DNA from: Bacteroidales bacterium
Lineage (GTDB): Bacteria > Bacteroidota > Bacteroidia > Bacteroidales > UBA12170
NCBI GenBank assembly: GCA_029938465.1
Contig: JAOZUW010000013.1
Span: 2,633 to 35,487, forward strand
DNA length: 32,855 nucleotides
Reading direction: 5' to 3'
Part shown: positions 14,370-29,654 of the stretch, piece after piece
How the letters are laid out: each line of letters starts with the position of its first letter
Position numbering within the stretch: the first letter of the stretch is position 1
Translations under genes and position numbers: made by a program
The notes under the pieces: generated by a model
Seen by the model: the letters and a program-made list of their open reading frames with translations, nothing else
Told to the model about the DNA's origin: nothing
Databases searched by the model: none

Positions 14370-14834
14370 TTATACATAAGTTATTTGCGATGTTTGGAAA
14401 TCTTTTCTTTTGATGGGCTTATGGATATCCACAAATACTTCACCTTTAACTATGCTAATGGGGAAAATATCTAAAGCTCTTGTAGCTGGTGGTGACTCTA
14501 CTTCACCAAATTTATTAAATGATGAAGCATGACAAGGGCATTCAAAACCATTATCATTAGCCTGAACAATACAACCCAAATGTGTGCATTTTACCGACAA
14601 GGCTAATAATCCACCATCTTCAAGCACTGATAATTGAAATTTAGCTGATCCGAAAGGATAGATTTTATTTTTTTCCAAACTATCTAACCTACCCACTTTG
14701 TATAGCTGATTATCGCCATTATTGATGTTCTTGTTTTTAAGTGCATCAAAGGTTAAATAGCCTGCTTCTAATGCCACTAATGCTAGTGCTGTTTTCTTTA
14801 TGAAATTTTTTCTGTTCATCTTTTTTTGAACCAT
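14370..14834 (-). CDS. Rieske [2Fe-2S] protein; likely true start is the second Met at 14819
   Basis: CTHLGCIVQANDNGFECPCHASSFNKFGEV Rieske cluster motifs; N-terminal membrane anchor. Confidence 0.92.
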   Translation of the reverse strand: MVQKKMNRKNFIKKTALALVALEAGYLTFDALKNKNINNGDNQLYKVGRLDSLEKNKIYPFGSAKFQLSVLEDGGLLALSVKCTHLGCIVQANDNGFECPCHASSFNKFGEVESPPATRALDIFPISIVKGEVFVDIHKPIKRKDFQTSQITYV

Positions 14835-14894
14835 TAAGAAGTTAAGATTAATTAAGAGTATTATCTCTTAATGTGCCTTAATGCCTTTATGGTT
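14829..14894. repeat. Hairpin repeat copy 1
   Basis: AACCATTAAGAAGTTAAGATTAATTAAGAG / CTCTTAATGTGCCTTAATGCCTTTATGGTT form an imperfect ~30-bp stem. Confidence 0.9.
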
Positions 14895-14914
14895 GGTTTC
14901 CTTCTTTATTCTTG

Positions 14915-14979
14915 AACCATTAAGAAGTTAAGATTAATTAAGGGTATATCTCTTAATGTGCCTTAATGCCTTTATGGTT
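14915..14979. repeat. Hairpin repeat copy 2 (tandem, ~86-bp period)
   Basis: Near-identical to copy 1, including the linker ggtttccttctttattctt. Confidence 0.9.
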
Positions 14980-14999
14980 AGTTTCCTTCTTTATTCTTG

Positions 15000-15064
15000 A
15001 ACCATTAAATAGTTAAGATTCATTAAGGGTATATCTCTTAATGTGCCTTAATGCCTTTATGGTT
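15000..15064. repeat. Hairpin repeat copy 3 (tandem, ~85-bp period)
   Basis: Near-identical to copies 1 and 2; ends 5 bp from the GxxExxY stop codon. Confidence 0.9.
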
Positions 15065-15069
15065 AGTTT

Positions 15070-15480
15070 TTAATCATCTAACCCCTTAAAATATTCATTA
15101 ACAAATGGTTTCATTGACTTAGAGATATTATCAGTAAAAAAGTTTATCAATAAGCCTTGTGGTTTTTCCAGAAGTTTCATATAAGTTAATAGTTGTGCTT
15201 CATGAACAGGTAAAACTTTCTCAATAGCCTTTAATTCAACTATTACTAAATCATCAACCAACAGATCTAATCGTAATTCAGTATCCATTTCTAGACCTTT
15301 ATAGCTAACAGGAACAATTACTTGCTGTTTCACATTATAACCTTGTAATTTCAATTCATACTTCAAGCATTTTTCATAAACACTTTCCAACAAACCTGGT
15401 CCAAGTTGTTTATGTACTTCAATTGCACAACCAACAATTCTATAAGATAAATCTGTTACGTCTTCTTTTGTTAAACTCAT
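15070..15480 (-). CDS. GxxExxY family protein (PD-(D/E)XK nuclease-like)
   Basis: GPGLLESVYEKCLKYEL (GxxExxY) and RLDLLVDDLVIVELKAIE (D...ExK) motifs. Confidence 0.9.
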   Translation of the reverse strand: MSLTKEDVTDLSYRIVGCAIEVHKQLGPGLLESVYEKCLKYELKLQGYNVKQQVIVPVSYKGLEMDTELRLDLLVDDLVIVELKAIEKVLPVHEAQLLTYMKLLEKPQGLLINFFTDNISKSMKPFVNEYFKGLDD

Positions 15481-15496
15481 CTCTTATTCAATTTTT

Positions 15497-15561
15497 AACC
15501 ATTAAGAAGTTAAGACTAGTTAAAGGTGTATTTCTTAATATTCCTTAATGCCTTAATGGTT
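15497..15561. repeat. Hairpin repeat copy 4, on the 5' side of the GxxExxY gene
   Basis: aaccattaagaagttaagactagttaaagg...ccttaatgccttaatggtt; diverged copy of the same hairpin. Confidence 0.88.
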
Positions 15562-15569
15562 GGTTTTTA

Positions 15570-16838
15570 TTATATCAACAACATCCCCTCTCCTCTAAAC
15601 CAAACACCAATAATACTCATCACCATATACGAAACAAATATCATAGTAGTTATGGCCATTATTATTTCGAATTTATCAGCTGACATTGTTTTCCACAGGG
15701 TAAAAACAAATATAGCTGTGGGTATCATATACAATAATAGAGGAATAAGACCGGTACTAATAAACAATAACATGTCCAATTCATTCAATTGTAGTCCATA
15801 TTCTAATAAAATAATCATTAGTATTGTTAGAACTACAGAAAACACTATTGACCAAAGAATAATTCTCTTTCCCTTTGGTGAGTAAAACCAAACACCTACC
15901 TTTTCTTTTTCAATACTCCGCTTAGGAATTGCATAGAAGAACAAACCTAGGGATAAAGGAATAATAAAAGTGGCAATTATTGGATGTAAATTGATTAATA
16001 GCTCCTGAATTCCCATAAAATACCAAGGTGCTTTGCTTGGATTTGGGCTTATCATTGGGTTGGCCTTTTCTAATAAAGGCGCATCAAAAAACATAGAAAA
16101 AAGTAAAAGAGACGCAATTAATGCTAATCCTACAAAGATTTCTTTTGAAATAAGTTCAGGATTTACATTTACCATATTTTGTTTATCGCTATTAGCAACT
16201 GTTATCCCTTTAGCTTTACGAATTAACCAAAAATGCAGTACCACAAATACCATAAACATAAGAGGCAAAAAAGCCGTATGGAAATTATAAAAATTCAACA
16301 ACGTATTGGAATTAACCATTTCGCCACCCCGTATGATGTTTGCTATATCTTCTCCTATAAATGGAAAATACTCCAAAATATTTGTCATAATAGTTACAGC
16401 CCAGTATGACAATTGATCCCAAGGTAATAGATAACCCGTAAAATTGAAAGCCAAAACAATCATAAAAAGGACTAAGCCATAATACCAATTCTTTTTTCGT
16501 TCATAATAAATCGAAGTGGAATAAAAAACCCGCAGCAAATGCAAAAACGCTGTAATTACCATCAACATAGCACTCCAATGATGCATATTTCTTAAAAGCA
16601 CGCCAAAGAGACTGTTATACTGTAAAGCCAAGATAGAATCATAGGCATCGACAGGTGTAGGCACATAGCTAAAACGCAATAGTAACCCAGTGATAGCCAA
16701 TATGATAAAAAGCAGTGTATTTATACCACCCAGACCAAAAGTTCGTGTATAGTTTAAGGCTTGCTCATTTACCTTTTTTGGGTGCAAATGCAACAGAAAA
16801 CTTGTAAAAACGGAATTTTTAATATTATTATTAGCCAC
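15570..16838 (-). CDS. Cytochrome b (bc1/b6f-type) of a Rieske/cyt b complex
   Basis: HHWSAMLMVITAFLHLLRVF, GYLLPWDQLSYWAVTI, FHTAFLPLMFMVFVVLHFWLIRK, PWYFMGIQELL; multiple TM helices. Confidence 0.92.
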   Translation of the reverse strand: MANNNIKNSVFTSFLLHLHPKKVNEQALNYTRTFGLGGINTLLFIILAITGLLLRFSYVPTPVDAYDSILALQYNSLFGVLLRNMHHWSAMLMVITAFLHLLRVFYSTSIYYERKKNWYYGLVLFMIVLAFNFTGYLLPWDQLSYWAVTIMTNILEYFPFIGEDIANIIRGGEMVNSNTLLNFYNFHTAFLPLMFMVFVVLHFWLIRKAKGITVANSDKQNMVNVNPELISKEIFVGLALIASLLLFSMFFDAPLLEKANPMISPNPSKAPWYFMGIQELLINLHPIIATFIIPLSLGLFFYAIPKRSIEKEKVGVWFYSPKGKRIILWSIVFSVVLTILMIILLEYGLQLNELDMLLFISTGLIPLLLYMIPTAIFVFTLWKTMSADKFEIIMAITTMIFVSYMVMSIIGVWFRGEGMLLI

Positions 16839-26855: not shown

Positions 26856-29654
26856 CTACTCTAACACTGTTAGTATATCTCTTAATCGAATATCGTTAGA
26901 AGATGCACCAATCATAATCCTAAATTCTCCAGGCTCTACAATTCTATTCAAATTTACATCTAGCATACTTAATAATTCCGGGTTAATCTTGAAAGATAAT
27001 TCTTGTGTAGCTCCTTTTTTCAGATGAATACGCTGAAAACCTTTTAACTCCATTATTGGACGAGCCACCGAAGCATATAAATCTCTAATATATAATTGCA
27101 CTACTTCATCACCATCAAAATCACCAGTATTAGTGATCTTAAAACGAACAGTGCAACTAGCATCTGCCTGAATATTATTTTGATCCATTACTAAATCAGA
27201 ATACTTAAATTGAGTATAACTCAACCCATAACCAAAAGGAAAAAGAGGCTTACCACTAAGATTTAAATAGTCATCTCCCCTACCAGTAGGCTTATGGTTA
27301 TAATACAATGGTAGTTGAGCTTCATCTAAAGGAAAAGTAATAGGCAATCGGCCAGCAGGATTATAATCACCGAATAATACATCGCACACTGCATTTCCAC
27401 CCTCTTCGCCAGGATACCAAACATCAATAATAGCATAAACATGCTGAATCCAAGCATTCATATTAACGGCACTTCCTCCTACAATAACTACTACCATTGG
27501 TTTTCCTGTTTCTGCCACACTATTTATCAGCTCTTCTTGATGTCCGGGTAAAGAAAGGTGGGCTCTATCCCGAAACTCACCCTCTTCGATTCCAACTACC
27601 ACCACAGCTAGCTCACTCTTATCAGCCAAAGCTACCGCTTGTTGTATCTCATGTTTCCATTTTTGCTCCACAGTCTGATTCCATAATAATTTAAATCTCA
27701 CATTCCCCACTGTTTCATAAAATTCCAAACGGATATCATATTCCTTATTTTTCTCAAAATAATAGCTTTTAGTAAGCCTCCGGTATGTTTGTTTCTTCCA
27801 GTTATCAATGATAAGCTCCTCATTGATATATAATCTATAACCATCATCACCTTCTATACCTATTTCAAAATCACCTGTTTCTTTAGATGTTAGCTTTCCT
27901 GACCAACGAACAGAATAAAAATCATAATTTATCCTCTCTTGATCGGGTGAAAATAATGTCCAGCCAAAATCTATTTTATCATCAACTCTTATAAGTTCAG
28001 CATTCCCTGACAAAGCAATATTATTAAAATACTCCCCTAATAATCCGCTTTCTATTTTACCTTTATAATTGCAAGACAGGTTCTCTTTTGGAATACTCAC
28101 AAAATCAATTGATTCTCTTCCACATGCAGGCGTATAGTTAATTTGGCATGTTTGACCTAGTTTATTTTTTATTCCTTGCAAAATACTGATGGGATTATTT
28201 CCCGGACCAGAATAACCTCCCAGTCGAGCCTCCTGTGCATCCACTCCAATAAGAGCAATAGATTTTATATCTTTTGAAAGTGGTAATACATTATTTTCAT
28301 TCTTTAATAGCACAATAGATTCTAAGGCTGCTTTTTTAGCCAATATTTTATGTGCATTATTCCCTTCATACACCTCTGCTTCTTCAGGCTTAACATAAGG
28401 ATTTTCGAATAATCCCAACTTGAATTTAGCATAAAGAACTCGTCGAACAGACTCATTTACAGCAGATTCCTCAATCATTCCTTTTTCAAAAGCTTCAAAA
28501 AATAAAGGATAATGAGAATACGATGTCTGAAAAATAACATCTAATCCATTTTCGATGGCCTGCTCTGTTGATTCTGCATAGTTTTTAGCCGTAAAATGCA
28601 AAACATTAGCACCACCCGTAGCTCCTGCATCTGAAATTACAAAACCATTAAAACCCCACTCTTCTTTTAGTTTTTGATTCAATAGCCAATTATTTGCGGT
28701 GCAAGCTCTTCCATCTAAAGAATTATAGGATGTCATCACAGACACCACTTTTGCCTTTTGAAAACAAGCTTTAAAAGCAGGGAAATAAATTTCTTCCAAT
28801 AGTCTTTCATTAAAATGAATAGGGTAACTATCTCTACCACCGTCGCCCACATTGGCAATAAAATGCTTTGGTGTTGTAATAACACCCATTTTTTCAAATT
28901 GCGACACAAAAGAAAAAGCCATTTGGGTTGTCAGGAATGGATCTTCTCCATAAGTTTCTTCCGTTCTGCCCCATCTTACATCTCTGGAAATATTTAATAC
29001 CGGAGATAAGATTTGCCGAATACCTCTGGTTTTAGTTTCCTGAGCTATGGCATATGCTACATCTCCCATCAAAATAGTATCCCAAGTAGCAGCCAATGCA
29101 ATAGATTGCGGAAAAGCAGTTGCTCCTTTTCTAACCAATCCATGCAAAGCTTCATCAAAAGGGATGATTGGAATTCCAAGGCGTGTCTCTTCTATAAAGT
29201 ATTTTTGAATTTCGTTAATCAATAAGGCAGTTTCTTTAGCGGCACCACCTTTGGAATAATCTAAAATTTGCTCAGCCTCATGGCCTGTGTTACTTTTCGT
29301 AGATACCTGAAAACCAAATAATCCGTATTTATATTTTTCTTTTCCATCTGACAAATCTCCGGGAATCATAAATAATTGCCAGAATTTCTCCTCCAGTGTC
29401 ATTCTACTTAAAAGATCATCTACTCTTTCTTCAATAGAATTGTTTGGGTTTTTATATTTTATTTGCTCCTCTTGCTGACAAGAAAAAAAGCCGAAAATAA
29501 AAATGAATAAAAAAAGGTTAATAGATATGTTTTTAACAGAAATCATATGTACAGTTTTTAAACTTTGAACCTTGAATCTTGAACCCTGAACCTTGAACCC
29601 TGAACCCTGAACCTTGAACCCTGAACCTTGAACCCTGAACCTTAAGCCTACCAA
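26856..29654 (-). CDS. Glycoside hydrolase family 3 beta-glucosidase-like lipoprotein with PA14 insertion; likely true start 29546
   Basis: GFVISDAGATGG nucleophile region, KHFIANVGDGG, PA14-like GLLGEYFNNIALSGNAELIRVDDKIDFGW...FSVRWSGKL, C-terminal fibronectin III-like; MISVKNISINLFLFIFIFGFFSCQQ lipoprotein signal at second Met. Confidence 0.92.
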   Translation of the reverse strand: MVGLRFRVQGSGFKVQGSGFKVQGSRFKVQSLKTVHMISVKNISINLFLFIFIFGFFSCQQEEQIKYKNPNNSIEERVDDLLSRMTLEEKFWQLFMIPGDLSDGKEKYKYGLFGFQVSTKSNTGHEAEQILDYSKGGAAKETALLINEIQKYFIEETRLGIPIIPFDEALHGLVRKGATAFPQSIALAATWDTILMGDVAYAIAQETKTRGIRQILSPVLNISRDVRWGRTEETYGEDPFLTTQMAFSFVSQFEKMGVITTPKHFIANVGDGGRDSYPIHFNERLLEEIYFPAFKACFQKAKVVSVMTSYNSLDGRACTANNWLLNQKLKEEWGFNGFVISDAGATGGANVLHFTAKNYAESTEQAIENGLDVIFQTSYSHYPLFFEAFEKGMIEESAVNESVRRVLYAKFKLGLFENPYVKPEEAEVYEGNNAHKILAKKAALESIVLLKNENNVLPLSKDIKSIALIGVDAQEARLGGYSGPGNNPISILQGIKNKLGQTCQINYTPACGRESIDFVSIPKENLSCNYKGKIESGLLGEYFNNIALSGNAELIRVDDKIDFGWTLFSPDQERINYDFYSVRWSGKLTSKETGDFEIGIEGDDGYRLYINEELIIDNWKKQTYRRLTKSYYFEKNKEYDIRLEFYETVGNVRFKLLWNQTVEQKWKHEIQQAVALADKSELAVVVVGIEEGEFRDRAHLSLPGHQEELINSVAETGKPMVVVIVGGSAVNMNAWIQHVYAIIDVWYPGEEGGNAVCDVLFGDYNPAGRLPITFPLDEAQLPLYYNHKPTGRGDDYLNLSGKPLFPFGYGLSYTQFKYSDLVMDQNNIQADASCTVRFKITNTGDFDGDEVVQLYIRDLYASVARPIMELKGFQRIHLKKGATQELSFKINPELLSMLDVNLNRIVEPGEFRIMIGASSNDIRLRDILTVLE
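29567..29643. repeat. Heptanucleotide tandem repeat GAACCYT, about 11 copies
   Basis: gaacctt gaatctt gaaccct gaacctt gaaccct gaaccct gaacctt gaaccct gaacctt gaaccct gaacctt read directly. Confidence 0.96.

Follow-up and report, generated by a model that had tools for sequence, protein, structure and literature searches.

GxxExxY nuclease genes bracketed by hairpins of clade-specific 7-nucleotide words: a candidate REP/RAYT-like mobile system in bacteria

Introduction

Miniature inverted-repeat transposable elements (MITEs) and the ERIC, RUP and Correia elements are short, non-autonomous inverted-repeat elements found in intergenic, transcribed positions. The 23S rRNA intervening sequence is a stem-loop in a transcribed region, the loop of which is able to carry one small open reading frame (ORF) for the four-helix protein S23, and PD-(D/E)XK homing endonucleases such as I-Ssp6803I are encoded by small nuclease genes that spread themselves. 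Cas4 reads a short motif, the protospacer adjacent motif (PAM). Closest in layout to the locus described here are the REPtrons, which unite repetitive extragenic palindromic (REP) sequences with a REP-associated tyrosine transposase (RAYT). The parts of the REP literature drawn on here describe one gene flanked by palindromic repeats, solo repeats dispersed between genes, co-diversification of enzyme and repeat, and mismatched palindromes, and they treat GTAG and CGTC palindromes accompanied by HUH enzymes or by none (PMC8266576, PMC3733652). Here we analyse a 32,855-nucleotide (nt) stretch of a Bacteroidales genome (assembly GCA_029938465.1, contig JAOZUW010000013.1, positions 2,633 to 35,487; hereafter the window), in which a gene of the GxxExxY family and four hairpins lie between the genes for cytochrome b and the Rieske protein.

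We consider it probable, at roughly 60%, that this unit is a minimal REP/RAYT-like mobile system whose nuclease, an unrelated PD-(D/E)XK enzyme, recognises a 7-nt word of its own. The open-access literature names GxxExxY as an annotation label alone, and we found no paper there that ties GxxExxY/PDDEXK_3 to repeats or holds the repeat strings; subscription journals and NCBI family notes were outside the scope of this search.

Results

The original prediction, made from the letters of the window, proposed that a GxxExxY nuclease-like gene and four hairpins of about 65 nt form a linked unit inserted between two genes that normally adjoin. The hairpins lie exactly where it placed them (Table 1), and the encoded protein scores 145.2 bits against TIGR04256 GxxExxY (cut-off 35) and 139.3 bits against PF13366 PDDEXK_3 (cut-off 22). 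Comparison of orthologous loci, which the prediction had called for, uncovered empty sites: in two congeners 4 nt separate cytochrome b from Rieske. That hairpins and nuclease are linked is borne out by the enrichment of hairpins at such genes and by words that track the protein tree, both described below. The prediction also gave each copy a bulged stem of about 30 bp. Each hairpin indeed folds better than its dinucleotide shuffles (z -3.0 to -5.8), but it is the 7-nt word CATTAAG, set at a pitch of 8-10 nt in inverted arms and nearly fixed across hairpins, that is conserved, rather than a continuous stem. Spacers between the words pair below the expectation from column composition (0.29 vs 0.385; the negative sign reflects the polarity of the arms), which rules out a perfect hairpin as the selected feature. 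Since the spacers pair no more than chance would give and the words are nearly fixed, the word is what is kept.

The word follows a grammar that holds well beyond the window. Flanks were sampled from 80 related loci in named genomes and about 110 in whole genomes; the grammar count covers 198 GxxExxY genes. The grammar, CRYNNAG, was derived by reading the most frequent 7-mers in the same loci that were later counted; controls and independent phyla guard against over-fitting. Of the 198 flanks, 49% contain a tandem CRYNNAG pair at a spacing of 8-11 nt, whereas the figure is 2.1% for the 283 control ORFs and 1.2% for shuffled flanks; the pitch of the words, set in inverted arms, peaks at 8, 9 or 10 nt. 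For most of the nine altered grammars counted, namely the word reversed, ending in C or A (CRYNNAC, CRYNNAA), starting with G or T, or with different letters at position 2 or 3, the count stayed near the control level; only ARYNNAG was somewhat raised (19% vs 8%). When the 250 nt before and after each gene were aligned in inverted orientation, the best alignment exceeded z=4 for 54% of GxxExxY genes; among the remaining ORFs of these loci the share was 0.8% (a few duplicates included). The window gene stands between complete hairpins. At many other loci the left arm lies 5' and the right arm 3', the gene itself forming the loop of a single hairpin.

GxxExxY genes are found in 73 of the 148 Bacteroidota genomes sampled, about half, and the grammar is kept in records from Gemmatimonadota, Spirochaetota and Pseudomonadota. 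A plasmid record of the GC-rich Gemmatirosa has CGCAGAG hairpins on both sides of GxxExxY, one of Sphingomonas an arm of CGCGAAG between fabD and fabG, and one of Treponema the same build with the words CACGGATT ... AATCCGTG; CACAGAG words occur in plasmid records of Bacteroides finegoldii and Bernardetia. Carriage is nonetheless rare, at 7 of 72,556 plasmid records and no phages, so GxxExxY is not ordinary cargo of either. On the Gemmatirosa megaplasmid (L298, positions 1501-1880), a frameshifted GxxExxY gene lies between two intact CGCAGAG hairpins: the gene decays and the hairpins persist.

Word and protein diversify together. On a tree of 199 GxxExxY proteins the word classes are strongly clustered, namely CATTAAG (the clade of the window), CACATAG, CACxxAG, CGCxxAG and, in a distant clade, CRYNNATT. 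Word positions 1-3 require 15 changes on this tree, against 52 with shuffled labels (the minimum of 200 shuffles being 45); the G/TT tail requires 8 against 20 (minimum 16), positions 4-5 require 34 against 60 (minimum 54) and the whole word 59 against 93 (minimum 87). With 134 columns the tree is short, and many forks in it are weak; the independent changes on it are too few for any protein residue that switches with the word to reach significance. Within a genome, paralogues differ in their words. The source genome of the window has three more GxxExxY genes, none with CATTAAG repeats around it: one (C72) is flanked by CGCAGAG words and another (C25) by CGCTAAG/CGCAAAG words, in arrays of the same build, and the third (C125) by ACAAAG-like words and a contig end. 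With their different words, the first two gave the earliest hint of a general association and of words that vary from one paralogue to another. Linked inheritance could account for part of the agreement between word and protein tree, and to that extent weakens it as an argument for recognition. It gives no account of the concerted change of words in both arms and in solo copies elsewhere, a sequence pattern that points to recognition of the word by the protein.

The protein itself is predicted to have the PD-(D/E)XK nuclease fold of Cas4 and lambda exonuclease. Residues E31, D71, E81 and K83 (alignment numbering, with E81-x-K83) are invariant in 60 aligned sequences. The AlphaFold2 model of the window protein has a confidence (pLDDT) of 97.2, and in a Foldseek search it matched best to Cas4 (SSO0001, 4ic1), then to lambda exonuclease and LHK-Exo, then to tRNA-splicing endonuclease. 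Cas4 profiles match the protein weakly (E 7e-5), and the GxxExxY alignment has no invariant or nearly invariant cysteine that could serve a four-cysteine Fe-S cluster like that of Cas4.

Arms and genes also respect the direction of transcription. Among distinct sites with co-directional neighbours, 57 run with the operon and 8 against it (p 3e-10), and the arms are polar relative to the gene, with AAG/GAG spacers 33 times in the right arm and once in the left. The cassette starts at a median of 11 nt past the upstream stop codon and ends at a median of 16 nt before the next ATG. Such a bias would fit an element that works at the RNA level, comparable to rRNA intervening sequences and to repeats processed by RNase III: the hairpins, which fold well as RNA, would act in the polycistronic mRNA, and the nuclease would cut or bind them to release or autoregulate its own message, mobility being secondary or caused otherwise. 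The presence of tRNA-splicing endonuclease among the weak fold matches agrees with this. We nevertheless regard an RNA-level element as unlikely: the spacers are unpaired, and from clade to clade the two to three words of an arm change in concert, something that pairing by itself would not require; moreover, new copies at new sites require a DNA step, the best fold matches are DNA nucleases, and an Rfam search of the window gave no match at the gathering cut-off or at E<=1.

Copies of the repeat are dispersed. The exact pattern AACCATTAAGNNNTTAAG is present in 26 of 30 carrier genomes, and its reversed control had no match in the 30. Site counts rest on the 13 genomes with fully listed matches, which carry 1-8 GxxExxY genes each. 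There, 11 of 63 repeat sites fall within 1 kb of a GxxExxY gene, where 0.13 would be expected; hence hairpins are enriched about 85-fold beside these genes, as predicted, though they occur genome-wide. All 11 lie beside the cognate paralogue, that of the CATTAAG clade. Of the other 52 sites, most of those inspected hold a solo hairpin or an array of tandem hairpins, in many cases 5-15 nt past a stop codon. Flavobacterium sp. 11 (G088) has 17 CATTAAG sites, none of them near its three GxxExxY genes; these orphans were possibly left after loss of a gene. That solo copies outnumber those with a gene, and that some genomes have hairpins and no cognate gene nearby, could mean that the hairpins are MITE- or REP-like repeats moved by another enzyme, with GxxExxY as cargo trapped between arms and hitch-hiking. 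This we think quite improbable, given that GxxExxY alone was found to recur systematically within the arms or beside the repeats, in four phyla and with many word classes, that word and protein co-diversify, and that paralogues keep separate words.

In two genomes (G063 and G084; L278-L297), several hairpin arrays stand at contig ends; assemblies thus break at the repeats, and copy numbers are underestimates. At two contig ends of the source genome (C95 and C49; L008, L009) a CATTAAG arm runs into a different intergenic repeat (AACCTTGAACTTTAAACC...), and a second family of short repeats may be linked to the hairpins there.

The junction of hemA and hemC, followed through 30 Flavobacterium genomes (L304-L333), displays insertion and decay at a single site. 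Ten junctions are empty, nine of these with the hemA stop and hemC start overlapping (TAATG). Four of the 30 are occupied by a full cassette, in which a left and a right arm enclose the gene as the loop of the hairpin. One junction has a CATTAAG hairpin standing alone, at six there is just one arm, and hairpins made of ATATAAG are present at three; at about four, the arm consists of still other words (CGCAAAG, CACAAAG/CGCTAAG, CACAAATT and one doubtful). Two of the junctions (L307 and L325) hold short remnants. Within a single genus this junction has taken up at least four word classes, in the manner of a hot spot for insertion. On the HemC tree the states are mixed, one well-supported trio holding three different word classes; empty, full, solo and remnant states so distributed imply repeated, independent insertion and loss of parts. 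Across the 80 loci there are 49 distinct pairs of neighbouring genes. The insertion polymorphism at hemA-hemC largely refutes the idea that the hairpins are terminators or attenuators of the operon and GxxExxY a resident, vertically inherited and immobile regulator. The conserved position in 21 Flavobacterium and the placement of hairpins directly after stop codons would suit such host regulation, but empty sites with overlapping genes, several word classes at one junction within a genus, single-arm decay products and the variety of neighbours would not, and we judge it very improbable.

In the window, the unit and its host genes are arranged as given in Table 1. All four hairpins have the orientation of the GxxExxY gene and of the operon, and belong to one 84-nt direct-repeat family, two copies being 96% and 83% identical to the reference; the first window copy is only 64% identical because a 1-nt indel puts it out of register. 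The last bases of the hairpin nearest to Rieske, ATGG, supply that gene with an in-frame upstream ATG (MVQKK-MNRKN...). As a general start for downstream genes, the ATG of the right arm (TTAATGGTT) was rejected, being in frame in 13 of 33 cases, no more than chance. Elsewhere in the window, the beginning (29560-29654) of a glycoside hydrolase-like ORF called at 26856-29654 consists of translated DNA repeats (RFRVQGSGFKVQGSGFKVQ), and the true start of this gene is probably downstream of the called one.

Table 1. Features of the inserted unit and its host genes, in window coordinates.
Feature	Position	Strand	Remarks
Whole inserted unit	14829..15561	-	Order on minus strand: hairpin, GxxExxY gene, three tandem hairpins; occupies cytochrome b-Rieske junction
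GxxExxY gene, 136 aa	15070..15480	-	Profile matches TIGR04256, PF13366
Hairpin copy 5' of GxxExxY gene	15497..15561	-	Inverted arms of CATTAAG-type words; RNA fold z -3.7
First hairpin copy 3' of GxxExxY gene	15000..15064	-	Fold z -3.2
Second hairpin copy 3' of GxxExxY gene	14915..14979	-	Fold z -3.0
Third hairpin copy 3' of GxxExxY gene	14829..14894	-	Fold z -5.8
Cytochrome b, upstream host gene	15570..16838	-	Stop codon 8 nt before first arm
Rieske protein, downstream host gene	14370..14834	-	Homology start at Met of MNRKNF, ~14819

Discussion

How might such a unit move? In the mobile system that we favour, two inverted arms, each of two or three tandem 7-nt words (here CATTAAG, in general CRYNNAG), would bracket one nuclease gene specific for that word. 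The GxxExxY protein would bind its own word in inverted pairs, either as double-stranded DNA or as a folded single strand, and nick or cut there, acting on DNA rather than RNA as the enzyme of mobility. Copying during repair or replication would then carry arms and hairpins, and at times the gene, into short intergenic gaps, usually just past a stop codon. Solo hairpins would be gene-less, non-autonomous derivatives that arise by gene loss, and the gene itself would probably be expressed via read-through of the host operon.

Several observations weigh against this proposal. The strand bias and arm polarity would fit a role in RNA, and the orphan hairpins of Flavobacterium sp. 11 have no cognate gene beside them. 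By eye, no target-site duplication is evident at hemA-hemC or cytochrome b-Rieske, where insertions are old and their ends blurred. The 21 Flavobacterium loci at the one hemA-hemC site indicate that many copies are old and vertically inherited. Just over half of the GxxExxY flanks (51%) are without a tandem CRYNNAG pair, owing to other tails or decay, and enrichment of the distant clade's grammar, CRYNNATT, is only weak (7.6%, against 6.0% of control ORFs and 1.0% of shuffles). Finally, as evidence for a DNA nuclease the Foldseek matches are all remote, the best having an E-value of 5e-3.

With somewhat better than even odds, we would extend the proposal to a widespread class of mobile elements, in which a minimal Cas4-like nuclease reads a clade-specific 7-nt word (CRYNNAG or CRYNNA-TT) and places hairpins, either alone or together with its own gene, into the stop/start junctions of operons; protein and word together would constitute a specificity code that can be read from genomes. 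If so, a large nuclease family of 'function unknown' gains a substrate and a class of intergenic hairpins gains an enzyme. The many protein-word pairs would be ready data for decoding how a very small nuclease picks a 7-nt sequence, and there would be an explanation for why assemblies repeatedly break, and repeats insert, inside housekeeping operons.

Among described systems, the logic of REP/RAYT, suggested in the original prediction, fits best: solo palindromes are dispersed and a gene is flanked by the same palindromes (of the 63 sites, 11 at the cognate gene and 52 solo). The enzyme, however, is of the PD-(D/E)XK type and not an HUH Y1 transposase, PDDEXK_3 being the only gene in the window unit. 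The repeats are arrays of 7-nt words and less numerous in each genome (about 1-50 matches to the pattern), and neither GTAG nor CGTC, the tags in the REP definition given in the part of PMC3733652 drawn on here, occurs on the gene strand of the four window hairpins. The analogy with rRNA intervening sequences, offered alongside, is weaker, as the unit sits between cytochrome b and Rieske rather than in rRNA and its protein, matching PF13366 only, is of an unrelated family. With Cas4, lambda exonuclease and LHK-Exo it shares the predicted catalytic fold, and with Cas4 profiles a weak sequence match; yet, unlike Cas4, the GxxExxY protein is smaller, is without conserved Fe-S cysteines, has no cas genes nearby and is tied to hairpin words. 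MITEs, ERIC, RUP and Correia elements differ in that GxxExxY units have no insertion sequence (IS) transposase or IS ends, and have instead a word grammar and a cognate nuclease. Unlike a homing endonuclease gene, the unit is intergenic and not in an intron or intein, and the word is absent from the empty cytochrome b-Rieske and hemA-hemC junctions; a cut made at the word in the empty allele therefore cannot be what spreads the unit. Membership of REP/RAYT, Cas4, rRNA intervening sequences and homing endonucleases thus each fails on a defining feature. Each branch of the nuclease family has a word of its own, which suggests that GxxExxY units are a kind of mobile DNA, present in many bacteria, that has so far gone undescribed; together with the open-access literature, the failed memberships are the basis for calling it new. 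If any enzyme with dispersed palindromes is counted as one kind, these units are a variant of that kind. Should the proposal be true, the layout of REP/RAYT arose separately with an unrelated enzyme.
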